From an uncultured Planctomyces sp. (lineage in GTDB: Bacteria; Planctomycetota; Planctomycetia; Planctomycetales; Planctomycetaceae): a DNA stretch of 32,864 bases. The notes under the pieces were generated by a model. That model was not told where the DNA came from. It was given only the letters and a program-made list of their open reading frames with translations, and made no database searches. Location of the stretch: contig CALGTK010000348.1 in NCBI GenBank assembly GCA_937904325.1, forward strand, positions 1 through 32,864. The letters run 5' to 3'. Shown here piece by piece: positions 11,933 through 27,520 of the stretch (the stretch's first letter is position 1; each line of letters opens with the position of its first letter). Both the position numbers and the translations under genes were made by a program.

Positions 11933-14605
11933 ATGTCGAATAGTTTCTCGCAGCCAGTGACATCCACTTCAGAACCCGTTGAGAACTTCATTTCGAGTGA
12001 GTGGATTCGTGTACGCGGTGCTCGAGTACACAATTTGCGGAACATCGACGTCGACATCCCGCGAGATAAGCTTGTCGTGGTGACAGGCGTTAGCGGAAGC
12101 GGGAAGAGTTCTCTCGCATTTGACACGCTGTTTGCGGAAGGCCAGCGACGCTATCTCGAATGTCTTTCGGCGAGAACCCGGCAGCATCTCACGCAGCTTG
12201 AACGTCCCGACGTTGATTCGGTGACTGGTCTGCCACCGACAATCTGTGTTGATCAGAAAGTTGGCTCTGCTCGGATTCGGAGCACACTTGCAACGACCAC
12301 CGAAATCTACGATTACTTAAGGCTGCTCTATGCAAGGGCAGGGCAGGCGCACTGTCCGGACTGCAATGTCCCTGTTTCGCAGCAAAGCGTCGCCACAATT
12401 GTCGAACGAATTCTCGGGTTGGGTGAACGTCATAAAGTGATGATTCTTGCGCCGCTGGTTGTTGGGCGAAAAGGTGCTCATCGCGATGTTTTCGAGAAAA
12501 TCTGTAAGGCGGGATTTGTCCGTGCGCGAGTTGATGGAGAGATCGTAGATGCAGGCTCGCCGCCGGATTTACCACGTAGCGATGTCCACACGATCGAAGC
12601 GATTGTTGATCGGATTATCGTCAAGCCGAGGATCGAAGACCGTTTGCGTGAGTCCGTCGAACTGGCGTTAAAACATGGCGATGGCTCCTGTCTGGTCTGC
12701 GAACTGGTCGACGATACATGGAATGATCAGCTCTTCAGCAGCCGCTACTGTTGTCCCGATTGTGGAACGAGCTTTCCACCGTTGGAACCTCGATTATTCA
12801 GCTTCAATAGTCCTTACGGAGCATGCCCGGCGTGTCGCGGCCTGGGCCGAAAAGTTCCACCGGAAGTCCAGGCGAAGTCATACCGGTTACGCACTGAGTT
12901 GACTCGTCAGCCGCTTTGCGAGGAGTGCCATGGAGCGAGGCTCGCTCCGGTTTCCTGTGCCGTCACATTTGCCCAAACGAAACTGCACGAACTGACGGCA
13001 ATGACCGTGGCCGAAGCCGCAGAGTTCATTCGCAATATCGAACTGAACATCTCCCCCGAAGCAACGCAGGCTGTACAAAGTATTCTTCCGGATGTTGCTT
13101 CAAGACTCGAATTCCTGCTGAACGTTGGCGTCGACTACCTCACGCTCGATCGACCGACGCCGACACTGTCCGGTGGTGAATTTCAACGCGCTCGCCTCGC
13201 CAGCAGTCTCGGTTCTGGATTGATCGGAATTTGCTACGTGCTTGACGAACCGACGATCGGGCTGCATTCGCGCGACACGAATCGAATGATTGAAATTCTG
13301 AAAAATCTGCGAGATCGAGGGAACAGCATACTCGTCGTGGAGCACGATGTTGATTTGATGAGAGCTTCAGAATGGCTCGTTGATCTCGGTCCAGGAGCCG
13401 GAAAGGAAGGAGGATCGGTGCTGTGGTCCGGATCACCGAGTGGGCTGATCGGCGATTCGCCGACGGCAGCAGCGATGTCGATGGCTTCAGATTTACCTCT
13501 CGCTTTGTCCGACGAAGCGTCTGGAAAAGAAAATGCAATCGTGGACTTCGAGCAACGCTTGCGGCTGGAAGGAGCAAGTCGGCATAACCTCAAAGATGTC
13601 TCTGTTGAGATTCCACTCGGACTTCTGACTGTCGTGACTGGCGTCAGCGGTTGTGGCAAGTCGTCACTGATTACGCACACGCTGATTCCCGCCGCACGGC
13701 ATGCGCTCAACGAATCGAATCGTAGCCGCCGGGTTTCGGCTGGTGACGAAGCCTCATCCCCGCCGACTGATTTGTCGCAACTTGACATCGCCTGCCGCAG
13801 CATCTGCGGAACAGAGCACATCGATCGTTTGGTTGTGGTTGATCAGTCACCGATCGGGCGGTCAGGGCGTTCGAATCCGGCGACGCATACTGGGATTTGG
13901 GACGAAGTTCGTAAGGTGTTTGCGAAGACTCGCGATGCGCGTGTGCGAGGTTTCAATGCACGACGTTTCAGTTTCAACGCGAAAGATGGACGTTGTCCGA
14001 ATTGTGAAGGCCGTGGTACGCAGCGCATTGAGATGAATTTTCTCCCGGACGTGCACGTCGAGTGCCCCGATTGTCGCGGTGCACGATTTAACGTCCAAAC
14101 GCTCGGTGTGAAGTATCGTGGAAGCGGCGTCGGTGACGTCTTACGAATGCGGATTGACGAAGCCCGTGACTTCTTTAAGGACTTTCCAAAGCTGAAGTCA
14201 ACGTTAGAGGTAATGTGCGACGTCGGGCTGGGTTACCTGGAACTTGGCCAGTCGGCGCTGACACTTTCCGGTGGCGAAGCTCAACGAATCAAGCTGGCCG
14301 CAGAACTTGGCAAAGGGGGAGAGGAGAAAGTTCTGTACGTGCTTGACGAGCCAACAACCGGACTCCATTCTGCCGACGTCGCTCGTCTCGTTGCTTTGTT
14401 CAGACGCCTGCTCGAGAAGGGCAACAGCGTTCTGGTCGTTGAGCATCACCTCGACGTCATCGCGTCCGCCGATTGGATCATTGACCTCGGGCCCGAAGGG
14501 GGAGAAGCTGGCGGGCAAATCATGGCGACGGGCTCGCCACGCAATCTTGTTGACGCCGTACAAGTCAGTCACACCGCGTCAGCGTTGAAACGTCATTTTA
14601 CATGA
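11933..14605 (+). CDS. uvrA: UvrA-type ABC ATPase of nucleotide excision repair, compact paralogue
   Basis: This 890-residue protein has the two-ATPase UvrA layout. Walker A loops are at 52-59 (GVSGSGKS) and 570-577 (GVSGCGKS). ABC signatures are [11 protein letters not shown] near 412 and [11 protein letters not shown] near 785, each followed by YVLDEP. A zinc module has Cys at 274, 277, 298 and 301, and a second lies in the C-terminal half (CPNCEGRG and later CPDCRG). The insert at about 140-250 that normally meets UvrB is present. Between the first zinc module and CEECHGARL there are only about 28 residues, where I recall more than 100 in E. coli UvrA, so a whole segment is missing. This suggests a secondary UvrA-like protein. 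The role is probably DNA damage recognition. The weak Shine-Dalgarno site leaves the start slightly uncertain. Confidence 0.85.
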
Positions 14606-14809: not shown

Positions 14810-17800
14810 TTAAATGTTCGCAGAATCCGCCAATCGTCCCATCAAATCGCTGATCACAGACTCCCGATCCGCGAACCAGTCTTTTGTGAGAACAACGGAG
14901 ACGTCCCAGCCGAATGCTCGCAGGAGTCGGGGTTTCATCAGGTCGCGTTCGAGCAGGTCGGTCTGTTCATAGTAGTCGCGTCCGTCGAGGACGATACCGA
15001 GTTTGTATGTTTCCGATTCCGGACGGCAGACGGCCAGATGACAACGGAAGTGCGATTGGCCGACGTTCGACTCGACGAAGTATCCACGTTGGCGGAGTTC
15101 GTCCGCAATTTCCTCGCCGATAGTGGATTCCTCAATCTCATCAGTGTCGTGTTCCGATTTAAGCGAGACCTGACGAAGAATCAGTGAGGCTGCATCCTGA
15201 TCGCCGATCGACGATGCCTCTGCATATCGGAGATAGTTTTTCAGGCAGTTCGCTCCGACGTTGTATTCGTTGGTGATCGCCGTCGAGCGAATTGAACTGA
15301 CCAGCGCCATGTGGTGTTTGGAACGAGAGAACGCAACGTTGAGCCGTTTTTCGCCGCCGGACCGATTGATCGGGCCGAAATTCATCCTCATCTTTTCGGT
15401 AGCGTCCGGTCCGTAGCAGACGCTCATGATGATGACGTCGCGTTCGTCGCCCTGGATGTTTTCCAGATTCTTCACGAGCAGACCCGCGAACTGACCGTCG
15501 TCTTCGCGGTCGTATTCGGCTTCGAGTTTCGTCGCGAAGTCAGAGTATTCCCGAGCTAGTGCCGCCAGAGCCTGTTCGATCTCGTCCTGTTGAGCTTCTG
15601 AAAAAGCGACGATGCCGATTGTTACTGGTTGCTCGTTGTTGAGCAGGCCTCGGACAAGCTGAGCGATGTACTCAGCTTCAGCCGTGTTGCGACGTTTCTG
15701 GTAGACGCCGTGTTCAATGAAATGAAAACTGACTGGCCGGTTCAGAAGTTCGGCCGATGCTGACTCGCCCGCTTCCGCGGCGGTTGCGATCAGCTCTTGA
15801 CGCTTTGTAACGATCCGGCGTTCATCGGGGACGGTTAGCAGGCGACCTTCGTAGAACGCCCAGTTCGAAAAACTGATCAGTGATTCAGACCGGCTTCGAT
15901 AATGCCAACCGAGCATTCGCGACGACAGATTCTTCGCCGCGTGATTCAGGAAACTGTCGCTGTTGAGGTCGTACTCAACGACTTCTCCACCTTCTTCAAA
16001 TGTGAATTGTTCTTCCTCGTCGGGAGTTGATGACGCAAAGAAGTTTGTCGGCGGAAGCTGCATTTCGTCTCCGACGACGATTGCTTGAGTCGCTCGAAAG
16101 ACGGACGGTACAGCTTCTTCCAGAGTGATCTGACTGGCCTCGTCAAAGATGACAACATCGACATGTTCGGTGTCGAGCGGTAGCGTGTCGGATACGCTTA
16201 GCGGGCTCATTAACCAGACGGGTTTCAGGTCCCGAACGACTAGTCCGGATTCCTCAGCGACAAGATCGCGGATCGGTTTGTACCGCATGCTCTTGCCGAA
16301 TTCGTGTTCCAGTTCCCGTCGACCTTTGCTGTAGTGTTTTTTGAACAGTTTCTGTTCAGCGGTCAATTGAGCGGCCGGCAATTGAGTGATCTTCACGTTG
16401 TCCAGAAATCGCTGTCGAACAAACTCTCGCACTGACTCGGCGTTCAGCGATTGCCATTCGTCATAGAGTTTTTCGAGCCGTTGCGAAATTCGGTCGCGGG
16501 TCGAGCCGGTGAATCGTTCCAGTTCGCGGTCGTATCTCCACGCGGACTCAATTGTTTTCGTCGCTGATGCCGATTCCAAAGCGTCTGTCGTCAGTGGCTG
16601 TGTTCGTAACGCTGCTGCGACGTCCGCTGGTAACTTCGCGAGCGATTCCAGGCACGGCAGAAAATTGTGCAGTTCGTCGAGCGAATCGTCGATTGCTTTT
16701 AGCTGGACTGATAATTCCTCGACAGAACGCGACTCCCAATCGATAACGACGGGTGTCAGTGCTGTACGGACTGAGTCAAAAAGCTGACGAGCGGCTGCGA
16801 CCTGTTTTACCGCATCGTCCACGGTTTGCGATTCGCTCAGAGATTCGGCGAAGTGCTGCACTGGTTGAGACGCTTCTTTCGAAGCGTCCTGAATTGTCTT
16901 CACGTTTGACGTCAGAGTCTGCCAGTCAAGTGGTGAGCCGATCGCATTCTGAAGCTCCTGCTCGACTTTTTGGCATTGTTTGTCAGCGGCGTATTCATCG
17001 TTAAGCCACTGCAGTGTTTGTGAAACCGGCACGACAATTGAGTGAGTGGAGAAGTCATAACTCTTCTGCACAAGCCCTTTGAGTTTCCACCAGCCGGGAT
17101 TGAGGAACCGGAAGAATGAACTCTCGAAGCTCCTGGCTTGAGAAAGAGCGATCTCGGCGTCGTCAGCAGACAGACGGTTCTTCCATGCTTTTGTCTTCTC
17201 GCGGGCTTCCTTGTGAGCGGCCCTACACCGTTCAATTTTCGGCATGTGTCGCCGGACAGTTTCGTTGAGTGGCCCGTCGGGATTGAGTAGCCCGATGAGT
17301 CCGTGCTCGGCCAGAACGCTCGCCCTTTCGGCAAACGAGATTACGCCCTGCCATTGTTCGATGGTCCACTCGAAATCGACGAGTGAGGAATGGTTCTTAA
17401 TTAGTTTTTGCACCTCAGCCAGACGTGAACTTGCTCCCCGCAGAGCATTCGAGACGGCTTCGATTGGGCGATCAGTTCTGGCTAACGAAGGAGCGAGCGA
17501 CTTCAGCGAGGCGTCGTGAAGGACTCCGTTTGCTTGTACGTGGCGCAGAGTTTCATCGACGTCCTGCAACGTCGCTGCGGACTGTTCCCATTGTGAGTAG
17601 TCTGGGATTTTTTCCCATTGCTCAGGAGTCAGGTCTTGAGGGCACTCACCGGAAATCTGCACGAGTCGCTGCAGGAGATCGATCAGGAAAGTTGCAGTGT
17701 CGCCTGTTGAGGTCTTCATCGACGTGCTGAAATCGTCCAGGGGTTTGAGTTCCTGCTCGATCCGTTTTACCAGGTCATCGCGTTTCCGTTTCTGATGATC

Positions 17801-20005
17801 TCGCCGACGGTTGGCGTCTTCGAGGAACGACTCGTACGTCGCCTTGAGATCCATCACGAAGGACTTCTTATCCGCCTGTGAGTCGTGTATCAGGCAACAG
17901 AGTTCTTCCAGACCCTGCGTCTTCAGTCGATGGTATACAACGTCGATTGCCGCTCGTTTTTCACAGACGAACAGAACGCGTTTGCCTCGCATGACGTAAT
18001 CGGCGATCAGATTAGTGATCGTCTGTGATTTTCCCGTGCCTGGCGGTCCTTGAATGATGTAGCTTCGAGACGTTCTTGATTCGGCAATTGCTGCTGTTTG
18101 AGTCGGATCGCAAGGGACAACGTGGAAGCGTTCGGTGAGTGGCAGCGTATCGTCGGCGTCTTCTTTCAGGGGGCGAGGCACCAGCGAAAACGTCGCGTCG
18201 AACGCGGGATTGCTGGCCTCATCATCGACCAGCGCCGCGTAGTCTCGAACCAGCGACATGCGGCGGTAGCGAAAGTTACCGAGCGTGACGCTGCATAGAT
18301 CGAATTCCCAGTGATACGGATTGTCGCCGGATCGGGCTTTGAAATTGTAGAACGATCGATCCTTCTCGATGACGGCTGGCGAATCGATGATTGGGTAGCC
18401 GCGAGCGGCTCCTTTCGCATTCTGATCAGGTGGCGCCGTTCTCACTGGTGGCTTAGTGTTGAGTATATCGTGAAGATGAACATCGACCGGTTTCACTCGA
18501 GCGGAAAATAATTTTAAACCGAGCGGGTGATAGTTGGCGGGGTCGTATGAGTAGTCGAGGTCCAGAAATCTCCGGACGCCGCGGCCGGCAACGCGGGCTT
18601 TTCTCCGATACTGCTCGAGCCGGCGTCGAGCCTTATCGTGCAGGATTTCAATGCGGGGTTTATCGACCAGCTCAAGTGTTACGCCGGGCTCGGTGCAGTG
18701 GATCTGGTCTTCCAGGAATCTCCAAAGCTCTTCCGGCGAAGATTCATTCAGATCGACCCGTTCGGGAAGCGTGATACCAAACAGTTGGCGGAACTGGTGG
18801 CGGATGACCGGATTTACTTCCGCATCGTCGCTGAGCGTCTGAAGCTCAAAGATGTCCGTCACACCTTTCTTCTTGCGAAGCCGGACGGGAATCAGCAGTA
18901 ACGGCGAGTCGTACGACTCGTGCGGTGTTTCCTTGAGATTCGTCCAGCGAAGGAAGCACGCGACAAGCCTCAGTTGCGCGAAGCCGAATTCTTTTTCGTC
19001 TCGCCGAGCTTCGGTGGCAATCCGTCCCAGAGTGCCGGGCAGGTAAATCGCTTCTCGAAAATTGAGATAACTGTTGAGAGAAATTGAACCGCCCTTAGCA
19101 ATCTTCTTTTGGAACTTCGGTGTCCACGTGAGAATCTGATTGGGGCGAATATTTTGAAGATCGAACGAAAGTGGCACGGACGACTGAGTCAAATCGATTG
19201 AAAGCGAAGTCGGTTTGAAGTTGAGCAAACGGTTTCGGCGAGAGATCTCAAACAAACGTTCCTGCAGTTTTGCAAGAATAACCTGCTGTTTCCCTTTGAT
19301 GTCACGCGTTTCGAAGCCAGAGATTCGCGCCATTTCGATTTCGAAGCTGACGGTCTGGTCGCGGTAGTTCTGCAATGCGCGAAACAACGATGCGAGATCC
19401 TGCGGTCTCCGGTCGCGGTCCAGTTCCGTCATTTGCACGATGGCTCGCGCTACAAACGGATGTAGATCGGGGTTCAACTTGAACAGGTTGTGTCGTGATC
19501 GGACGAATGATTCCAGTTCTTCGTCCACGGAAAAGTCGAGACCGCAGATCAGGCTGCCAAGAATCATACCCAGGCAGAAGACATCAGTCAGCGGGTCGTG
19601 ATGTTCGGCAAGGTGTTCCCAGGCAACGTAGCCAGGAATGTAAAGCGGGTGTTCGACTTCGGTCAGATCGCGGTTGCCAATAGAAAGATCATGCCATTCG
19701 CGTTTGTCATCGACGTCGGTGACGGATCGACTTTCGCCGACCAGTTCAACGGCTCGAGCACGCGGCCGCTGGATTTGTTTGACCTTGCTTGTGCTGAGGA
19801 GTGGCTGCCGCAAATGAGTTTCTTCAAACCACAATTGGACACCTTCGACCTGCACCTTGTTGATGTTGTCGAGCGGCGCGACTTGTTCCGCGGCGTGGGC
19901 GGCGATTGACTGCCGCATGAGCGGAAGAAAACTTGCCAGTGCGTCTTCGGTTGAGAATCCGCTGGATCCAGTCCGTTCCCGTAGGAAATCAAGAAACGTT
20001 GTCAT
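14810..20005 (-). CDS. Pseudokinase-like / DUF4011 / superfamily 1 helicase / Vsr-like nuclease fusion
   Basis: This 1731-residue protein is a chain of domains. Residues about 119-215 resemble the C-lobe of a Ser/Thr kinase: YVAWE in place of APE, DVFCLG in place of DxxSLG, then DRDRRP. The ATP-binding N-lobe, HRD and DFG are not seen, so it is probably an inactive remnant. A DUF4011-type region covers about 240-480. The helicase has Walker A GPPGTGKS (653-660), a roughly 500-residue helical insert, DEAS (1288-1291), GDEMQLPP (1312-1319), QGDERD (1518-1523) and NVAFSRSK (1556-1563), as in COG1112 Upf1/Dna2-like enzymes. The C-terminus (about 1625-1731) looks like an MTES_1575/Vsr-type nuclease, with LDGRDYYE around D1674 and LLERD near 1684-1688. 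The start at 20005 overlaps the upstream dehydrogenase stop as ATGA. An anti-phage or nucleic-acid-processing role is inferred from architecture only. Confidence 0.9.
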   Translation of the reverse strand: MTTFLDFLRERTGSSGFSTEDALASFLPLMRQSIAAHAAEQVAPLDNINKVQVEGVQLWFEETHLRQPLLSTSKVKQIQRPRARAVELVGESRSVTDVDDKREWHDLSIGNRDLTEVEHPLYIPGYVAWEHLAEHHDPLTDVFCLGMILGSLICGLDFSVDEELESFVRSRHNLFKLNPDLHPFVARAIVQMTELDRDRRPQDLASLFRALQNYRDQTVSFEIEMARISGFETRDIKGKQQVILAKLQERLFEISRRNRLLNFKPTSLSIDLTQSSVPLSFDLQNIRPNQILTWTPKFQKKIAKGGSISLNSYLNFREAIYLPGTLGRIATEARRDEKEFGFAQLRLVACFLRWTNLKETPHESYDSPLLLIPVRLRKKKGVTDIFELQTLSDDAEVNPVIRHQFRQLFGITLPERVDLNESSPEELWRFLEDQIHCTEPGVTLELVDKPRIEILHDKARRRLEQYRRKARVAGRGVRRFLDLDYSYDPANYHPLGLKLFSARVKPVDVHLHDILNTKPPVRTAPPDQNAKGAARGYPIIDSPAVIEKDRSFYNFKARSGDNPYHWEFDLCSVTLGNFRYRRMSLVRDYAALVDDEASNPAFDATFSLVPRPLKEDADDTLPLTERFHVVPCDPTQTAAIAESRTSRSYIIQGPPGTGKSQTITNLIADYVMRGKRVLFVCEKRAAIDVVYHRLKTQGLEELCCLIHDSQADKKSFVMDLKATYESFLEDANRRRDHQKRKRDDLVKRIEQELKPLDDFSTSMKTSTGDTATFLIDLLQRLVQISGECPQDLTPEQWEKIPDYSQWEQSAATLQDVDETLRHVQANGVLHDASLKSLAPSLARTDRPIEAVSNALRGASSRLAEVQKLIKNHSSLVDFEWTIEQWQGVISFAERASVLAEHGLIGLLNPDGPLNETVRRHMPKIERCRAAHKEAREKTKAWKNRLSADDAEIALSQARSFESSFFRFLNPGWWKLKGLVQKSYDFSTHSIVVPVSQTLQWLNDEYAADKQCQKVEQELQNAIGSPLDWQTLTSNVKTIQDASKEASQPVQHFAESLSESQTVDDAVKQVAAARQLFDSVRTALTPVVIDWESRSVEELSVQLKAIDDSLDELHNFLPCLESLAKLPADVAAALRTQPLTTDALESASATKTIESAWRYDRELERFTGSTRDRISQRLEKLYDEWQSLNAESVREFVRQRFLDNVKITQLPAAQLTAEQKLFKKHYSKGRRELEHEFGKSMRYKPIRDLVAEESGLVVRDLKPVWLMSPLSVSDTLPLDTEHVDVVIFDEASQITLEEAVPSVFRATQAIVVGDEMQLPPTNFFASSTPDEEEQFTFEEGGEVVEYDLNSDSFLNHAAKNLSSRMLGWHYRSRSESLISFSNWAFYEGRLLTVPDERRIVTKRQELIATAAEAGESASAELLNRPVSFHFIEHGVYQKRRNTAEAEYIAQLVRGLLNNEQPVTIGIVAFSEAQQDEIEQALAALAREYSDFATKLEAEYDREDDGQFAGLLVKNLENIQGDERDVIIMSVCYGPDATEKMRMNFGPINRSGGEKRLNVAFSRSKHHMALVSSIRSTAITNEYNVGANCLKNYLRYAEASSIGDQDAASLILRQVSLKSEHDTDEIEESTIGEEIADELRQRGYFVESNVGQSHFRCHLAVCRPESETYKLGIVLDGRDYYEQTDLLERDLMKPRLLRAFGWDVSVVLTKDWFADRESVISDLMGRLADSANI

Positions 20006-21237
20006 GCGGTCATCGCTTCAAGGAGTGTTGTAAGTTCTTCGTCTGAAATCTCTTTGGGGTTGCCGCTCATGCTGTTGCCGTGCGAGCTTGCGACGATGGC
20101 CGGGATCTGATCGCGAGTAACTCCGAGTTTCGTGAGTGTTATCGGAATCTCGATCCGTTCACAGAGGTGTTCGACGATTTGAATAACAAATTCAGTGGCC
20201 GCATCATCTGAACCAAGGGAAGCCATGTTGGCCATTTCACGAGCTGAAAGTTCAGAGAGGTTCGAATCGACGAGGGACTGTCGCATGACGCGTCCGGCCT
20301 GCGCGAGCGTTGCTCTGCCAGCATCCCTGTTAACTCTCAATGCTTGCGGAAGCATGACCGCGCACGCCAGACCGTGCGGAACGCTGGCGTGAACACCTAG
20401 CGCGGCCGCGACGCCGTGAACCATTCCAAGGCCCGAATTCGCCAGGGCAAGACCCGACAACAAAGCCGCATGCGCCATCGCCTCTCGAGCCGGTCGAGAC
20501 GTGCCATTCTCAACAGCTTCGATAATTGCGGGAATCGCCAGCGTGAGACCGTGAAGGCAGAGTGCCTGCGGAATCGGTTGGGCACGGTTGGAAATGAGAC
20601 TTTCGAGTAGCTGCGTGATTGCATCCATGCCTGTGTGAGCAGTTGTTTCCGGCGAGAGACCGACGGACAGTTCGGGATCGATCAGCACAGCATCTGGAAT
20701 CATCATCGGCGATCGTAAACTCTTCTTGAAAGCTGGATCGTATGATGAGATGACCGCATTTTTTGTGGCTTCCGTCCCGGTGCCCGCCGTTGTTGGTATG
20801 GCGATAAGCGGGATGGGAGGCTCGTCAATTGTCAGTCCGGCGCCGACACCTTCGAGGTAGTCTTTGACGGTAGAACTCTCTCGGTTGGTCACCAACGCGG
20901 CGGCAGCCTTTGCGAGATCGATGGCCGAGCCTCCGCCGATCGCTACTAAACAGTCACCGCTCCCGGCTCCTCGCCGAACGAGATCAGCGACCAGATTGTC
21001 GACGTCAACGACTTCGGGTTCATGAGAAATTGTGGTGACCTGTTTGAAGTCGCAGCCTTCTGACTTCACCTGATCGATCAGCTTGTCAAGTTGGCCTGAG
21101 GCCTCAAGTGTACGGCTCCCGGAAACAAGGAATGCTCGTCGTCCGTACTGAGCGACAATCGAGCTAAGTTCAGATTGCCGTCCCCAGCCGAAGGTAATTT
21201 GGCTCGGCGAATAGAAATCGTAACTGAGGTTTGGCAT
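20002..21237 (-). CDS. Iron-type (group III) alcohol dehydrogenase
   Basis: This 411-residue NAD(P)-dependent oxidoreductase carries the cofactor loop GGGSAID (101-107) and IPTTAGTGTEAT (147-158). The metal-site region includes TGMDAITQ (202-209), GMVHG around H274 and VPHG around H288. In the classical family the ligands are Asp, His, His, His; here D205, H274 and H288 are present but the second position is Gln209. I believe this DxxxQ form occurs in a subgroup, but metal and substrate are uncertain. The ATG at 21237 is preferred because the fold begins just after it; the frame extension to 21312 runs through the upstream palindrome. The stop codon overlaps the helicase start as ATGA. It lies 87 bp after the ceramidase-like gene. 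Confidence 0.88.
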   Translation of the reverse strand: MPNLSYDFYSPSQITFGWGRQSELSSIVAQYGRRAFLVSGSRTLEASGQLDKLIDQVKSEGCDFKQVTTISHEPEVVDVDNLVADLVRRGAGSGDCLVAIGGGSAIDLAKAAAALVTNRESSTVKDYLEGVGAGLTIDEPPIPLIAIPTTAGTGTEATKNAVISSYDPAFKKSLRSPMMIPDAVLIDPELSVGLSPETTAHTGMDAITQLLESLISNRAQPIPQALCLHGLTLAIPAIIEAVENGTSRPAREAMAHAALLSGLALANSGLGMVHGVAAALGVHASVPHGLACAVMLPQALRVNRDAGRATLAQAGRVMRQSLVDSNLSELSAREMANMASLGSDDAATEFVIQIVEHLCERIEIPITLTKLGVTRDQIPAIVASSHGNSMSGNPKEISDEELTTLLEAMTA

Positions 21238-21267
21238 TCGGCGGAGTTCTGAACTGACAAGAGAGAA

Positions 21268-21317
21268 GTAGGGTACTGCCCACCAGAAGCGAGATTGGTG
21301 GGCGGTGCCCACTCTAC
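21268..21317. repeat. Palindromic intergenic element (hairpin)
   Basis: The left arm (21268-21284) and right arm (21297-21317) are nearly complementary around a 12-base loop. The core stem GGGTACTGCCCACC pairs over 14 positions with GGTGGGCGGTGCCC, with two G-U wobbles on the plus strand. On the minus strand, along which the flanking genes are read, those two become A-C mismatches. The outer GTA...TAC can pair with a small bulge. It separates the ceramidase-like and dehydrogenase genes. It may be a REP-like dispersed palindrome, or may act on mRNA stability between the two genes. Confidence 0.65.
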
Positions 21318-21324
21318 AGATTCG

Positions 21325-22887
21325 TCAAAGCTTGCTGAGGATTTCAGTTGCTTTGTCTTCGTAGATCTTCTGCCAGTCGGCACCGAGCACGCAGTCGCTG
21401 TCTTCCTGAGCGCCTCCGACGTTCAGAAGTTGCTCTGTCGTTGGGGCGTAGTAGATGTAGCCGTTGGTGTAGCCTGCGATGAACGTTGATTTGTGCGGCG
21501 AGTTTTTCTTCAGGTTCAGACCGATCTGCACGGTGAGTTCGCCGGGAAACGTGGTCATCACAAAGTCGCCGATGCGTAGTCCGGTTAGCTCGACATCGAT
21601 CGTACGTTTGCCGGCAGCGACTCCAGCGGCATGATGCTTTCGAAGGAGTCGCAGGTTTGTGTTGAGACGCGTGAGGTTTTCCATCGTGTGGATATTGCGA
21701 ATGTACCGCTCCATGTTCGCTCGGTTTTCTGCATCGAGTGTGTCGAGATGCTTTCGTCCCATCGCCCGGTCATGAAGATATCGATACGGGTAATTGGCCG
21801 GGAATTCCATGGACGCTTTGTACTTAACGAAAAGTGGGATGAAAGTTTTCAGGTTGAGCGAAGTTCCGCCGAGTGATTGCACCAGGCGAACCTGCTCGGA
21901 CTCCATTTCCGTGATTCGGCTGGCAGTGTCCGCTCGGGGGAGTGTCAGGATTTCACTCACCACCTTCAGGCGAGCATCTCCTTTAGTCTCGATTTTCCGG
22001 ACGGCTTTCAGGGTGCTCAGTCCAAGCATGTTGCCGAGCGGTTCGGCATCTCGCGGGTAATCGACGTCTTTGTAACGGATGGGGTTGATGTCCCCTCCAC
22101 AGCCCTGGACGAACAGAGCAATCGTGCCTTCGCTGAGATTGTCCTCGATGACCTGCGAGGCGAAGCCGGTGATGTCCGCACTATTGCCTCGGCTGGGCAC
22201 ATTCTGAATCGGGTGACAGGCAAAGTTGTAAACGACGGCCAGCGTTGTTCCGTCGAGCCTGTCGAGTTTCAGGATTCCGATTTCGGTGTCGACGGGCCCG
22301 ACCGATGCGATCTCCTCATCAGGGGGAATCGAATAGGCATGCCGCACGTCGATCGTTCGGCCGTTTTTCATCTTGAGCCGACGGTTTTCCATGATGCGAT
22401 CTTCGTAGCCAGTGCCAACTCCGACTTTAACCGGGACGAGGTTACTGGCGGCCTCTTTGATCGCCTGGATGGTCCGCTCGTCCGCGTCTTTGCAGGGAAT
22501 GCCGTGGCAATGGCTGGCGTTTGCCATCACGTTTGCGGGTGGAATGCCGAACTCCCTGTTGACGGCATCGCGGACTTTTCCGAGGTAGTCGTCTTTGATG
22601 TACCCGATCCCGCCGATGGCAACTGCGTCGACCGTGACGATGGCAGTCATCGTCGAGCCGGACTTCAGTACCAGCGCTTTGGCATAAAGCGGATCATTGA
22701 CCGGACCGGCATCGAGGTTGGTAATGTCGATTTTGGCGACGCCTGCACTCAGCGTTTCCGCAGTAGCGACCTGAGCCTCCATCGTCAGTACGAACGCGAA
22801 CGTGAAAATTATTGCGGCCCGTGCAAGTCTGTTGCGGAAAGGTGCTCCATGGATTTCGTGTTTCAACGGCGTGTCTTGGCTGAACAT
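21325..22887 (-). CDS. Secreted neutral/alkaline ceramidase-like protein
   Basis: This 520-residue protein starts with a signal peptide (basic stretch, hydrophobic core about residues 23-36, likely cleavage after VATA). The mature part opens SAGVAKIDIT. It carries ASHCHG where the family has a His-containing metal motif, then NFACHP and VQGCGGDINP, matching the neutral ceramidase N-terminal domain frequent in planctomycete genomes. Most of those proteins have not been shown to act on ceramide, so the amidase substrate is open. GAGGA lies 9 nt before the ATG. It is the first gene of the minus-strand unit leading to the dehydrogenase and helicase genes, and is divergent from the PQQ-like gene across a 183-bp region with 11-bp direct repeats. 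Confidence 0.85.
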   Translation of the reverse strand: MFSQDTPLKHEIHGAPFRNRLARAAIIFTFAFVLTMEAQVATAETLSAGVAKIDITNLDAGPVNDPLYAKALVLKSGSTMTAIVTVDAVAIGGIGYIKDDYLGKVRDAVNREFGIPPANVMANASHCHGIPCKDADERTIQAIKEAASNLVPVKVGVGTGYEDRIMENRRLKMKNGRTIDVRHAYSIPPDEEIASVGPVDTEIGILKLDRLDGTTLAVVYNFACHPIQNVPSRGNSADITGFASQVIEDNLSEGTIALFVQGCGGDINPIRYKDVDYPRDAEPLGNMLGLSTLKAVRKIETKGDARLKVVSEILTLPRADTASRITEMESEQVRLVQSLGGTSLNLKTFIPLFVKYKASMEFPANYPYRYLHDRAMGRKHLDTLDAENRANMERYIRNIHTMENLTRLNTNLRLLRKHHAAGVAAGKRTIDVELTGLRIGDFVMTTFPGELTVQIGLNLKKNSPHKSTFIAGYTNGYIYYAPTTEQLLNVGGAQEDSDCVLGADWQKIYEDKATEILSKL

Positions 22888-22908
22888 CTTCGGCGTCCTC
22901 GATACGAA

Positions 22909-22937
22909 TTGTTGGCGGCAATAAGTCAGACTATATT
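22909..22937 (+). promoter_or_regulatory. Possible promoter for the PQQ-like gene
   Basis: TTGTTG (22909-22914) and TATATT (22932-22937) are separated by 17 bases, close to a sigma70-type consensus. The site would give a leader of about 125 bases containing the 11-bp repeats. This is a pattern match only. Confidence 0.25.
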
Positions 22938-22985
22938 CACGCCACGAGCTATCAGTCGACTCTGACGCGATTCGGTCGACTTTTC

Positions 22986-23018
22986 ACGTTGCTGTGACGT
23001 TGCTGTCGCGTTACTGTC
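22986..23018. repeat. Three 11-bp direct repeats in a divergent promoter region
   Basis: ACGTTGCTGTG, ACGTTGCTGTC and GCGTTACTGTC follow one another without gaps. The 11-bp period places equivalent bases on nearly the same face of the helix. Three GTCGAC palindromes start at 22955, 22975 and 23016 in the same region. Cooperative regulator binding between the two divergent secreted-protein genes is possible; the regulator is unknown. Confidence 0.55.
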
Positions 23019-23070
23019 GACTGCCTGAAGTGACAGTTTCCCCCGCCCTTTGTTGACAGGCTCTGAATCA

Positions 23071-24345
23071 ATGCTTCATGCAGATTTTCGTTCGTTGATG
23101 CTCTTAGGTATTGCGTCGCTGGTCTTCGTTCAGCAAATGCAGATGGTGACAGCCAACGATTGGCCTTCCTGGCGTGGACCATATCGTAGCGGGGTCGCGC
23201 TGGACGAAACCGGGCTACAATCCGAATGGTCCGAAGATGGTCCGGAGGTCCAGTGGCAGATTGACGGACTTGGTCGAGGCTATTCATCAATTGCGATTTC
23301 CGACGGTCGCATCTTTACGATGGGCAAACGCAAGGCTGGCTGCGAGCTGATTGCATTGGATTTGAATGGCGGCCGCGAGCTGTGGTCAACTCCCGTCAAA
23401 GGCGGGAATCCCAACTGCACGCCGACGGTCGACGGCCGTCTTGTTTACGCGTTGGGTCGAGAGGGGCACCTGGTCGCGGCTGACGTGGCGACGGGCGAGA
23501 TCGCCTGGCAAAAAGATTTCCCGAAAGATTTCGGCGGCAGAATGATGTCGGGTTGGGGGTACAGCGAATCTCCGCTGATCGATGGTGATCGACTGGTCTG
23601 TACGCCCGGAGCTAAAGACGCAGTCGTCGTGGCGCTCAACAAGAAAACCGGCGATGTAATCTGGAAGTCCGCCATGCCGGATGACATCGGCAAGCGAGGC
23701 AAAGACGGAGCGGGCTACTCGTCGATTGTGATCAGCAATGCACGGAACGTTAAACAATACGTTCAGTTGACAGGCCGGGGAGTGATTTCGCTCGACGCTG
23801 AAGATGGTAAACAGCTTTGGTCATACAACCGCATTGCAAACGGGACTGCCAACATTTCCACGCCGCTCGTTCAAGGAGACAGCGTGTTCTGCTCGACCGG
23901 ATATGGCACTGGAGCTGCGCTGCTGCAGGTCAAAAAGGAAGCTGACCGCGTGTTCGTCGAAGAGAAGTATTTTCTCGACGCTAAGAAGATGCAGAATCAT
24001 CACGGCGGGATGATCGTCTACGCTGACCACATCTACTGCGGCCACGGGCACAACAGCGGATTTCCATTGTGCATTAAGTTCACGACCGGAGAAAAAGTGT
24101 GGTCGGGCGGCCGAGGTCCAGGCAGGGGTTCAGCAGCCATCCTGCTGGCCGATGGACACCTCTACTTCCGTTACGAAGATGGAACAATGGCTCTGATCGA
24201 AGCGACTCCTGAAGAGTACCGTCTGAAGAGCTCGTTTAAACTGAAAACCAACAACGGCAAGAGTTGGCCACATCCGGTCATCGTTGATGGTCTCCTCTAC
24301 GCCCGCGATCAGAACGCACTCCTTTGCTACGACATCCGTAAGTAG
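23071..24345 (+). CDS. Secreted PQQ-binding-like beta-propeller protein
   Basis: This 424-residue protein has a signal peptide (hydrophobic core about residues 9-20, likely cleavage after VTA) and a mature start NDWPSWRGP, a very common opening of planctomycete PQQ-like proteins. Repeated blades carry the pattern LD..(N/D)G..LW, for example GGRELWS, TGEIAWQ, TGDVIWK and DGKQLWS. This is the Trp-docking pattern of a quinoprotein-like propeller. No catalytic residues of PQQ dehydrogenases were identified, so it may be a structural or binding propeller, as in BamB. The ATG at 23071 is preferred; a TTG at 23050 in the same frame is less suitable. It is transcribed away from the ceramidase-like gene and followed by a long gene-free stretch. 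Confidence 0.9.
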   Translation: MLHADFRSLMLLGIASLVFVQQMQMVTANDWPSWRGPYRSGVALDETGLQSEWSEDGPEVQWQIDGLGRGYSSIAISDGRIFTMGKRKAGCELIALDLNGGRELWSTPVKGGNPNCTPTVDGRLVYALGREGHLVAADVATGEIAWQKDFPKDFGGRMMSGWGYSESPLIDGDRLVCTPGAKDAVVVALNKKTGDVIWKSAMPDDIGKRGKDGAGYSSIVISNARNVKQYVQLTGRGVISLDAEDGKQLWSYNRIANGTANISTPLVQGDSVFCSTGYGTGAALLQVKKEADRVFVEEKYFLDAKKMQNHHGGMIVYADHIYCGHGHNSGFPLCIKFTTGEKVWSGGRGPGRGSAAILLADGHLYFRYEDGTMALIEATPEEYRLKSSFKLKTNNGKSWPHPVIVDGLLYARDQNALLCYDIRK

Positions 24346-24814
24346 TGCTATGTGAAGGTTGTGCGAGGAACTGCTCTGAGCGATCTGAGGATTTGTTGAA
24401 GCCGGAGGTTCCTCTCGGTTTCTGTTAGAAATGCGGTGTGCAGAAAAATTTATTGAGTTATGTCAGGCACACAGCAGTTTTCAGTTATAGCCATGCGGCA
24501 AGATGTATCGTTTGCTCATAATTGGAAGTCATCAGTTAGAGGCGTATTTGAATCTTAAGCGTTCGAAACGGCGTGGAATTTCTCCTTACTGCAACTGGGA
24601 TCAGCTCGACGGCAAAGGCTTTGTGATGTGGGTTTCTTAATGCACCCATCATGAGTTCTACAGTGTGAGTTCGAGGTCACAGCCAAAGCAACAGGCGAGG
24701 CGATGGAAGTGTACGATGCATTGATCACTCTAGCATTGGATCAATTTCACTCGAATGAAGTTCTTGAATCAGGTGATTGCTGACGCATTTGATCGAGTTG
24801 ATCAGGTTAAAGTA
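24346..24814. other. Gene-poor stretch between converging PQQ-like and P450 genes
   Basis: These 469 bases hold no convincing gene. A 45-codon frame (24503-24640, plus strand) has no good Shine-Dalgarno site and no recognisable motif. Another of about 41 codons near 24756 runs antisense into the P450 3' end. A weak complementarity (24365-24371 with 24408-24414) could form a hairpin but has no T-tract. It may be eroded sequence. Confidence 0.4.
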
Positions 24815-26260
24815 TTACGCGGCGGCGCGTTGAGAAGCATGCGAGGGGAAGGTGACCAGGTCGTGGATGTTGCCGATTAATGACGATGTGTCGGCGATGG
24901 TACCTGGTTCGAGCAGTGTGACGGGGAGTGGAAATTCCGGGGAGAACATCGTTGAGATGACTCGGCCGTTGACTCTTGTGTTTGGGACAACCTGCAGGCC
25001 GGCTTTCTGCAGGGTCATGGGTAGGACGATGTTCAGGATTGACATTGCCAGGGTAGCGCCCAGGCAGAGTTTGGCACCGCCGCCGAATGGCAGATATTCG
25101 TAGCCGGTCGGACGGATCGTTTTCCAGCGGTCCGGGTGGAATTTGCTGGACGACGGAAACAACTGCTCGTTGCGATGCGTCATGAACTGGCTGAAGATGA
25201 CCAGCGAGTTTGGCTTTAGCAGCGCATCGTTCAATTCGGTCGAGCCGTTAGTGACTCGTTGCGAATAGGCGGATGCTGGCAGGACGCGCATGCTTTCTCG
25301 AATCACCCTGTCCAGCACACTGGTCGAATTCGCTGGCATGATGCCGGTGGGAGCCTCTGGCGGGCTGATTCGCAGGTTTGATTCCGGTTTGTCGGAAATC
25401 TGGTCAACGAGTTCCTGCATTACTTCCGGGTGCTGGGCGAGCAGAAACAGCGTCCACGTCAGTGTGTGAGCGGTCGTCATTTGCGATGCGCCAAAGACCA
25501 GAGCGGCCTGGCCGACCATCTGCGACTCTGTCATGGGTGCACCGGTCTGCTTCGCTCGCTGCAGCAGCGAAAGCACGTCATGGCCCGATGACGCCGCATT
25601 TGAGGACCGGCTGCTGATCATTGCGAGAATTCGTTCTTCCAGTTTTTCGGCGAAGGTCAGCATCTCCTGATAGCGAGGAAAGAAATCCTGGTCGGGGACG
25701 AGGGCGACAATGCCGATCTCCTGATTCATCCTGATCCAGCGTTCCATCATGCCGCCGATTTCCAGAGCAAGTTCCGGCTCTTTCATGCCGAAGAGCATCG
25801 AGCTGGAAATTCGCAGCATCAGGTCCGTCATGTCTTTCGAGATGTCTCGTGTCCTGCCGGGCTGCCAGTCGCTAAGCATGTCCTGCGTGTGGTGGCCGAT
25901 CATCTGTGAGTAACCGGGGATGGCTTTTTTCTCAAACGCCCCCTTCATTAGACGTCGCTGCTGCAGGTGCTCCTGGCCGTTCATGCTGAGCAGTCCGGAC
26001 GTCAGCCGTCGTTGCGCGGAATTCTTTGGGCCGCGAAGCGCGAAGAACTGAGAATGAAACTGATCGCCGTTAGTGAGAATTTGCCGGTTGAGGTCTGCGC
26101 CGATCGCAATGACGATCTGTTGTCCGTCCTGCTCCAGAGCGACCAGGTTCCCAGCTTCTTTCTGAAGCCGGCGCATGCATCCGATTGGATCGTCAGAGAA
26201 GTCGCGCAGCCGACCGTTGACTGTGGGGGGAGCAGAGGATGATGATTCAGGAGAAATCAT
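24815..26260 (-). CDS. Cytochrome P450
   Basis: This 481-residue soluble P450 shows the ExxR pair E322-R325. The PERF-like region is FHPDRW (374-379), and the heme loop FGGGAKLCLG (392-401) has the axial ligand Cys399. The I-helix reads ASQMTTAHT (258-266). Where most P450s have A/G-G-x-(D/E)-T-T, the acidic residue is replaced by Met261 and the Gly by Ser259; Thr262 and Thr263 remain. There is no N-terminal membrane anchor, so it is cytoplasmic and needs external redox partners; none is encoded nearby. The missing acid argues for altered oxygen activation. It lies downstream of the E2-like acyltransferase gene on the same strand, 133 bp apart, with an inverted-repeat element between. Substrate unknown. 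Confidence 0.93.
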   Translation of the reverse strand: MISPESSSSAPPTVNGRLRDFSDDPIGCMRRLQKEAGNLVALEQDGQQIVIAIGADLNRQILTNGDQFHSQFFALRGPKNSAQRRLTSGLLSMNGQEHLQQRRLMKGAFEKKAIPGYSQMIGHHTQDMLSDWQPGRTRDISKDMTDLMLRISSSMLFGMKEPELALEIGGMMERWIRMNQEIGIVALVPDQDFFPRYQEMLTFAEKLEERILAMISSRSSNAASSGHDVLSLLQRAKQTGAPMTESQMVGQAALVFGASQMTTAHTLTWTLFLLAQHPEVMQELVDQISDKPESNLRISPPEAPTGIMPANSTSVLDRVIRESMRVLPASAYSQRVTNGSTELNDALLKPNSLVIFSQFMTHRNEQLFPSSSKFHPDRWKTIRPTGYEYLPFGGGAKLCLGATLAMSILNIVLPMTLQKAGLQVVPNTRVNGRVISTMFSPEFPLPVTLLEPGTIADTSSLIGNIHDLVTFPSHASQRAAA

Positions 26261-26294
26261 GGATGACCGGACGTTGATGGTTGTTCAAAAGAAA

Positions 26295-26366
26295 GCCACA
26301 GAGAGCATGGAAGTCGCGGAGTTGTTCTGGCAGTCAGGTTTATATTTTCGCTAAGAGCTCTGTGGT
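26295..26366. repeat. Inverted-repeat-bounded intergenic element, copy 2
   Basis: The 72-bp segment is bounded by GCCACAGAG (26295-26303) and CTCTGTGGT (26358-26366), matching in inverted sense at 8 of 9 positions. The middle ATATT and the right third align with the element at 11805-11868. It lies between the E2-like gene and the P450 gene. Confidence 0.6.
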
Positions 26367-26393
26367 TGGACAATTTGTTTTAAATTCGGGTTG

Positions 26394-27212
26394 TCATGCG
26401 GCGTGTCTGTCGCAGCAGGTCTCTCTACTTGATTTCAAATCTTGTTCCAGGTGGCTGATGTTTTGGAGTTCGGCGAGGATTGACCCGGTCAGTTGTTGTT
26501 CCAGATCGAGCAAGCGGTCGGCGATGAATGAGCCGTCCATCAGTCGATGGTCGTAGACCACCGTGACTTTCATGCGGCCGACGTGGTCGAGTGGTCCGAA
26601 TGTCAGGCCGGTTGTCATCACCGTTGGCGGATGCTGAATTTCTGTTCCGCGGCCAGACACGCTCGTCAGGGAGAATGTGCCGAGCCGCTTGCCGCGTTTC
26701 TCTCCGGCGATGTTCAGGTTCCACCACCATATAAATCGACGGACGAATGTTGGCAGCGCGGCGAGTTTTATTTGCTTTTGAAACTGAGACGCGGGTGGAG
26801 CATCGTTGAATGCGTCGATGGCTGACTGAATATCGACAAGCGATTGCCACTCGGGTGAGCGAACGAGCCCCCAGAACAGCCAGTTCACGCTCGCGTGCTG
26901 GCGGTTGACAGCTAGATTGACGACAGATTCTCGGTGCTGGAAAATGTGTCCCCAGGGCCAGCTTCGCCAGGTTTGCCGGATGACAGGGTGACGGCTGCTG
27001 ACTTCGGCCCAGGCTTTGATGAACAGAGCTGACCAGGAGATTCGGATGGGGGATCGGCTGCGGGCGTCAGCCACTTCGCCGAGCCGCATGGAACGGCTAT
27101 GAGCAACCGTCGGATTGCGCTGGTGAAGCCGCAGGATATCGACTACCAACCTGCGGCTACGCGGAATTTGCGTGCGGCCTGTGCGGGTTTCAACGATTAC
27201 CGAAGGAAGCAT
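26394..27212 (-). CDS. Standalone E2-like (2-oxoacid dehydrogenase acyltransferase-fold) protein
   Basis: From ATG 27212 this gives 272 residues. The chain matches only the catalytic domain of dihydrolipoamide acyltransferases / chloramphenicol acetyltransferase fold, with the signature D221-H-R-L-M-D-G227 holding the catalytic His222. A substrate-side stretch SLTSVSGRG lies near 181-189. There is no lipoyl domain and no E1/E3-binding domain, so it cannot act as a normal E2 core subunit by itself. A free acyltransferase acting on a CoA ester or carrier-bound acyl group is an inference. Start choice is uncertain: no Shine-Dalgarno site is seen, and a TTG at 27278 would add 22 residues. It precedes the P450 gene on the same strand, so the two may modify a common molecule. 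Confidence 0.7.
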   Translation of the reverse strand: MLPSVIVETRTGRTQIPRSRRLVVDILRLHQRNPTVAHSRSMRLGEVADARSRSPIRISWSALFIKAWAEVSSRHPVIRQTWRSWPWGHIFQHRESVVNLAVNRQHASVNWLFWGLVRSPEWQSLVDIQSAIDAFNDAPPASQFQKQIKLAALPTFVRRFIWWWNLNIAGEKRGKRLGTFSLTSVSGRGTEIQHPPTVMTTGLTFGPLDHVGRMKVTVVYDHRLMDGSFIADRLLDLEQQLTGSILAELQNISHLEQDLKSSRETCCDRHAA

Positions 27213-27520
27213 GACATTGCCGTCAACTGGTCCACTGCAGACGTTTGGCTTCAACGGAAGAAGCCTTGTATACGTCAATCAGTGTCGACGGTCGGGGGCG
27301 GTTGACATTTGGGTCGAAGAAGCTGCAGTTGTGATCGCAGCGGCGGTTTCGAAAAGCGGCTGGTCCGACGAAGTCAGCTCAAGTGCGGAGCAATAAGCTG
27401 AAGGCGATCGGCTGCCTGCCCCGGACCGTTTCTGCGGGTTACTCGGCTAGTTGCAGACGCGCAAGCGATGAGGCCATCTTGTGACTCACTCCGCTGAGGT
27501 TCTGCCGCAACGCGTTTGTG
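27213..27520. other. Intergenic region between metallopeptidase and E2-like genes
   Basis: These 308 bases probably contain the promoter of the E2-like/P450 unit. The E2-like frame stays open to 27278 with a TTG start. I see no other gene or clear structural element. Confidence 0.35.

Follow-up and report, generated by a model that had tools for sequence, protein, structure and literature searches.

What could a bacterial protein do that joins part of a protein kinase to a DNA helicase and a nuclease-like domain in one chain? Such a fusion is encoded in a 32,864-nucleotide stretch of DNA from an uncultured Planctomyces sp., here called the window. A preliminary description, made from the sequence, had taken it for a stand-alone defence protein with a nuclease as its effector. 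We therefore consider which of its domains are likely to be catalytically active, what accompanies the gene in other genomes, and which functions this combination suggests.

Domains of the fusion protein

The single open reading frame of 1731 codons is real and lies on the minus strand (Table 1), the plus-strand reading of the same interval being interrupted by stops throughout. In a Pfam scan of the protein, DUF4011 (52.6 bits, cut-off 22.2), AAA_11, AAA_12 and MTES_1575 (62.3 bits, cut-off 38.2) all exceeded their gathering scores. Alignment of 58 family members showed invariant or nearly invariant SF1 motifs (GPPGTGKS 653-660, DEAS 1288-1291, GD..QLPP 1312-1319, WHYRS 1367-1371, QGDERD 1518-1523 and RLNV.FSR 1554-1561), comprising the Walker A, Walker B and motifs III-VI of a COG1112-type helicase. 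Both analyses agree with the DUF4011-type region and split helicase with intact motifs described initially. Purifying selection acts on all domains (omega 0.035-0.16 against the nearest relative, L038), indicating that this is a maintained gene.

Table 1. Positions of the fusion gene, its domains and nearby genes in the window
Feature	Residues	Position	Strand	Remarks
Whole fusion protein, 1731 aa		14810..20005	minus	Pseudokinase C-lobe, DUF4011, SF1 helicase and degenerate MTES_1575 domain
Pseudokinase	1-216	19358..20005	minus	Complete protein-kinase C-lobe; no N-lobe, HRD or DFG
DUF4011	250-402	18800..19258	minus	Pfam
AAA_11, helicase N-terminal part	633-789	17639..18109	minus	Walker A 653-660; Pfam and alignment
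AAA_12, helicase C-terminal part	1354-1571	15293..15946	minus	Walker B DEAS 1288-1291 just ahead; Pfam and alignment
MTES_1575/Vsr-fold domain	1631-1724	14834..15115	minus	Val1672 for Glu, His1656 for Asp; predicted inactive
Intervening genes		20002..27278	mixed	Fe-alcohol dehydrogenase, ceramidase-like, PQQ protein (plus), P450, 2-oxoacid-acyltransferase-like
M48 partner gene, 428 aa		27521..28807	minus	Soluble M48-type zinc metallopeptidase; HELSH 128-132, Glu175 third ligand, Asp179

A single-sequence Pfam scan gave no kinase match within residues 1-250. A profile built from 57 N-terminal sequences gave weak PDB matches to kinase C-lobes (AMPK, E 0.005), and an AF2 model of the region from the same alignment (pLDDT 89.9, pTM 0.84) retrieved protein kinases with Foldseek as 50 of 50 among the matches listed. 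In a VIA structural alignment, residues 1-216 superpose on residues 97-278 of PknB (Z 16.1, 153 residues, 2.8 A); the whole C-lobe is therefore present and the N-lobe absent. The kinase fold proposed earlier thus stands, with its extent enlarged from residues 119-215. The reported lack of an N-lobe, HRD and DFG holds for all 57 aligned sequences, in most of which APL occupies the HRD position. Invariant residues kept in the lobe are structural, namely Trp129-Glu130 (which we take to be the APE position, from the alignment and general kinase knowledge), Asp141 (presumably in helix F), Gly146, Arg197 and Arg200. The APE-position Glu, the helix-F Asp and their Arg are those of a protein-kinase-like C-lobe; the Gly loop, VAIK Lys, HRD Asp and DFG Asp of an active kinase are all missing from the fusion. 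The sensing or scaffold role suggested previously is plausible for such a non-catalytic remnant. After the APE-like motif and before helix F lies a His135-His136-Asp137 triplet (window positions 19595-19603, minus strand), invariant or nearly so across phyla, which is no standard kinase feature and is perhaps an interface or metal site.

Regarding the C-terminal domain, the Vsr/MTES_1575-like fold was recognised correctly, but its reading as an active nuclease was not upheld. Relative to the motif of ProA-type relatives (D-L-G-V ... G-I-E-C-D-G), the catalytic Glu is replaced by Leu, Met, Val or Phe in 58 of 58 family sequences. The motif Asp is retained in 52 of the 58, with His1656 in the window copy and Asn in its closest relatives, so the catalytic D...ExD of an active MTES_1575/Vsr nuclease is lacking. 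Given the family-wide loss of Glu and the loss of Asp in the window copy, nuclease activity is predicted to be absent and the domain is probably an inactive nuclease. These losses bear on the initial idea of a single-protein defence system that uses this domain as effector. Its Pfam score, its occurrence in the related ProA and Hhe families (see below) and the Asp kept by most members speak for that idea, which nevertheless we consider very improbable; we rejected it as the main reading on account of the lost catalytic residues and the existence of a conserved M48 partner gene. Some members carry additional C-terminal domains, with WGR in 19 of 58 by motif (Pfam confirmed six of six tested) and a LigA-type BRCT in two of 58. 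Domains of both types are found in known DNA break- or nick-binding proteins.

An M48 metallopeptidase as partner

The preliminary description, which treated the protein as acting alone, had missed a partner gene encoding a metallopeptidase. We identified 65 loci on genome contigs encoding relatives of the N-terminal 600 residues, 63 of which had informative upstream sequence. In 59 of the 63, a co-directional upstream M48 gene of ~400 codons ends ≤240 bp from the start of the helicase gene, frequently with a 4-base overlap. In the remaining four loci, M48 lies 757 bp away in one and 8-9 kb away in two and is absent in one, giving an M48 gene somewhere in the locus in 62 of 63. The M48-adjacent loci span six phyla, and M48 is the sole neighbour family common to more than close relatives, with no third conserved gene. 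For a further 35 loci of the DUF4011-helicase or ProA kind, the flanks examined contained neither the peptidase nor the pseudokinase (0/35). Among planctomycetes, the peptidase profile was strongly matched in six of seven helicase-bearing genomes and in none of the 287 others; in the seventh, the contig ends at the helicase gene. The chance probability of this co-occurrence is ~1e-11 by simple arithmetic that ignores relatedness. Hence, the fusion and the M48 metallopeptidase form a two-gene unit, and a zinc protease gene that almost always adjoins it across six phyla makes it look like a two-part machine. Three planctomycete genomes without the fusion encode distant, weak M48 matches (60-77 bits; L156, L157 and L158).

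The window peptidase exceeds the Pfam M48 cut-off and has the HExxH...E signature with the following Asp; its HELSH, Glu175 and Asp179 are conserved in 49-51 of 51 sequences. Structure prediction gave a confident fold with no apparent membrane helices. The closest structural matches were M48 enzymes (3c37, Z 10.2; ZMPSTE24, 9.3; BepA, 9.2; HtpX, 7.2), in comparisons that barely cover the helical C-terminal half, and the M48 profile matched no sequence in the PDB. Because the kinase and nuclease have lost their catalytic residues, the ATPase and the peptidase are the only intact catalytic sites in the pair, out of four enzyme folds (kinase, ATPase, Vsr-type nuclease and peptidase).

In the window, five genes, one on the opposite strand, separate peptidase and helicase. 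These genes are confined to the window's genus at this place, where congeners share the block, and are not thought to belong to the system. One of them, the Fe-alcohol dehydrogenase (20002-21312), was considered as an operon partner because it overlaps the helicase start by 4 bases, and was rejected since it occupies that place only in this genus. Helicase and peptidase also co-occur within the genus, and both are missing from a near-complete congener (G297). On the other side, a UvrA-type protein of 890 aa (window positions 11933-14605) adjoins the helicase throughout the genus, to which this neighbour is limited; in G297, UvrA is followed by another gene. A further congener (L037, G296:C41) has a helicase gene frameshifted at two places and an intact peptidase gene, the frameshifts being due to either sequencing error or decay.

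Distribution and proposed function

With only the ATPase and peptidase intact, the simplest reading is that a helicase recognising the state of DNA gates a protease and probably contacts it through the pseudokinase. We tentatively favour, at somewhat below even confidence, a two-gene DNA-surveillance system in which helicase-gated M48 proteolysis most likely serves anti-phage defence. The helicase would act both as sensor and as motor, the dead Vsr-fold domain (with WGR or LigA-type BRCT in some members) would hold DNA ends or nicks, and the pseudokinase C-lobe may dock or gate the peptidase. Engagement of abnormal DNA, such as phage DNA ends or replication intermediates, would be the trigger; ATP hydrolysis would then release or activate the peptidase, which could cut a host or phage protein. 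We infer this contact, activation and substrate, as well as the ranking of purposes with defence first and DNA-protein-crosslink repair second; an anti-phage role of the pair is putative.

Several observations are consistent with defence: M48 adjacency and co-occurrence, an intact peptidase set against lost kinase and nuclease sites, the WGR and BRCT additions, purifying selection, patchy presence, helicase kinship with anti-phage proteins and the precedent of Hachiman (PMC12278908), in which a sensor helicase likewise controls an effector, here presumed to be a protease. The family occurs in Planctomycetota, Verrucomicrobiota, Lentisphaerota, Actinomycetota, Myxococcota and Bacteroidota, yet within planctomycetes in just 7 of 294 genomes, so the fusion is no vertically inherited core gene. 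Against defence, the family tree (FastTree; a rough picture) groups mostly by phylum, and transfer between phyla thus looks infrequent. Relatives were not found in viral contigs, plasmids yielded helicase-core relatives without the fusion N-terminus, and the two matches in phage records were both partial and limited to the helicase core. Moreover, the genes are no longer adjacent in the window's genus, where one species has the frameshifted copy.

Enrichment of defence genes around homologues, proposed as a check at the outset, was not observed: PADLOC found no excess in 140 genes flanking 40 loci over 121 genes from random planctomycete regions, in a comparison that is crude because it lists only the top 25 families and because the control covers fewer phyla than the flanking set. 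Matches near the fusion were generic, each in one of the 140 genes, and similarly sparse in the control; by Pfam, the flanks encode ordinary metabolic and signalling functions. Defence islands can contain M48 genes, as illustrated by one in an E. coli R-M/DarTG island (PMC12255303), for which we claim no kinship. The preliminary description had named vertical inheritance as a core gene outside defence islands as evidence against its proposal. The missing enrichment and largely phylum-coherent tree point that way, whereas the patchy distribution does not, and defence is weakened as an interpretation rather than eliminated.

The main rival is repair of DNA-protein crosslinks or blocked forks with no phage role, where the same anatomy would be expected: the helicase would move along DNA until it meets a trapped protein, which the metallopeptidase would digest. 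In eukaryotes, SPRTN and Wss1 digest proteins trapped on DNA. A metallopeptidase, a helicase and WGR or LigA-type BRCT domains form the expected part list, and these domains suit repair as well as defence; the M48 model weakly matches a SPRTN structure (6mdw, Z 5.0), defence-island association is lacking, and UvrA adjoins in the window's genus. However, the M48 model is closer to M48 enzymes than to SPRTN, the UvrA neighbour is confined to that genus, the helicase kin are mostly defence families, and patchiness is odd for a repair pathway, which together leave crosslink repair rather unlikely.

Another possibility, which we regard as improbable, is a DNA-damage-responsive regulator, whose peptidase would cleave a repressor or similar protein once the helicase meets damage, following the peptidase-repressor logic of IrrE/DdrO. 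A soluble, intact peptidase beside a dead-enzyme sensor partner fits this arrangement, as does a weak structural match to IrrE (Z 6.0), but that likeness is one of zincins generally, and no conserved regulator gene lies nearby.

Considering these alternatives, we propose, with less than even confidence, that the pair is an undescribed two-component system of six phyla, in which a pseudokinase-helicase may sense broken or foreign DNA and switch on a metalloprotease, with the Vsr fold as a dead DNA-binding module. If so, proteolysis rather than DNA cutting would be the output of a DUF4011/COG1112 helicase. Were the coupling real, either this helicase class would gain a proteolytic output or bacteria would gain a dedicated DNA-protein-crosslink protease, and the pair offers a direct way to test what a C-lobe-only pseudokinase does.

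Comparison with known systems

DUF4011 helicase-nuclease fusions are known or candidate phage defences, and here an intact protease takes the effector position. By helicase profile, the nearest families are anti-phage or candidates (PDC-S37, 694 bits; ProA, 684; Hhe, 452). Within the literature library consulted, no paper was found on ProA, PDC-S37 or an M48-helicase pair. The best NCBIfam match, ProA (NF058533), shares the order of DUF4011, SF1 helicase and MTES_1575/Vsr domain, but the fusion falls well below its curated cut-off of 1500, as do five distant family members (640-697 bits). The ProA profile matches only from position 355 onward, the ~350 aa ahead of DUF4011 being replaced in the fusion by the kinase C-lobe. 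In the ProA members examined, the N-terminus is unrelated and a C-terminal extension is present; they retain the nuclease-motif Glu in 11 of 13 reference rows, and have no pseudokinase or M48 within 1.5 kb flanks. Four ProA N-termini (L124, L126, L127 and L130) contain Cys/His motifs that by eye resemble a transglutaminase-like domain, with no Pfam match; helicases of this class may have acquired protease-like parts more than once. In another locus (L125, G033:C151:30024-35798), a Ser/Thr kinase domain that is intact by sequence (Pfam 8e-53) precedes, within one open frame, a ProA-type ORF that exceeds the curated cut-off, apparently an active-kinase plus ProA fusion.

The best PADLOC match, PDC-S37, is a candidate system only and a single-protein model without a peptidase. 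It aligns with residues 565-1725 of the fusion over positions 217-1338 of the 1550 in the model, for which no cut-off is given, leaving the pseudokinase and most of DUF4011 outside. Hhe (NF042953), a DUF4011 anti-phage protein, likewise has DUF4011, an SF1 helicase and a Vsr-like C-terminus, but its curated cut-off is 2000 bits, and its best-matching stretch covers only the C-terminal half of the helicase and the C-terminus.

Mokosh (MkoA/MkoC) also combines a kinase-related region with a COG1112-type helicase, and the distinction originally drawn from it was correct. PADLOC models of Mokosh match only the helicase part; the fusion has a dead C-lobe in place of a protein kinase domain, and its Pfam scan contains no PLD family, the nuclease type that marks Mokosh, with MTES_1575 there instead. 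The Hachiman helicase senses damaged DNA and activates a separate effector (PMC12278908). HamAB resembles the present pair only in how it would work, as a DNA-damage-triggered sensor helicase with a separately encoded, adjoining effector (PMC12278908); PADLOC Hachiman models did not match the fusion, and HamA is a nuclease whereas the partner here is a metallopeptidase. On the basis of profile scores and domain content, the fusion is a distinct sibling family of ProA, Hhe and PDC-S37, placed outside ProA, Hhe and Mokosh.
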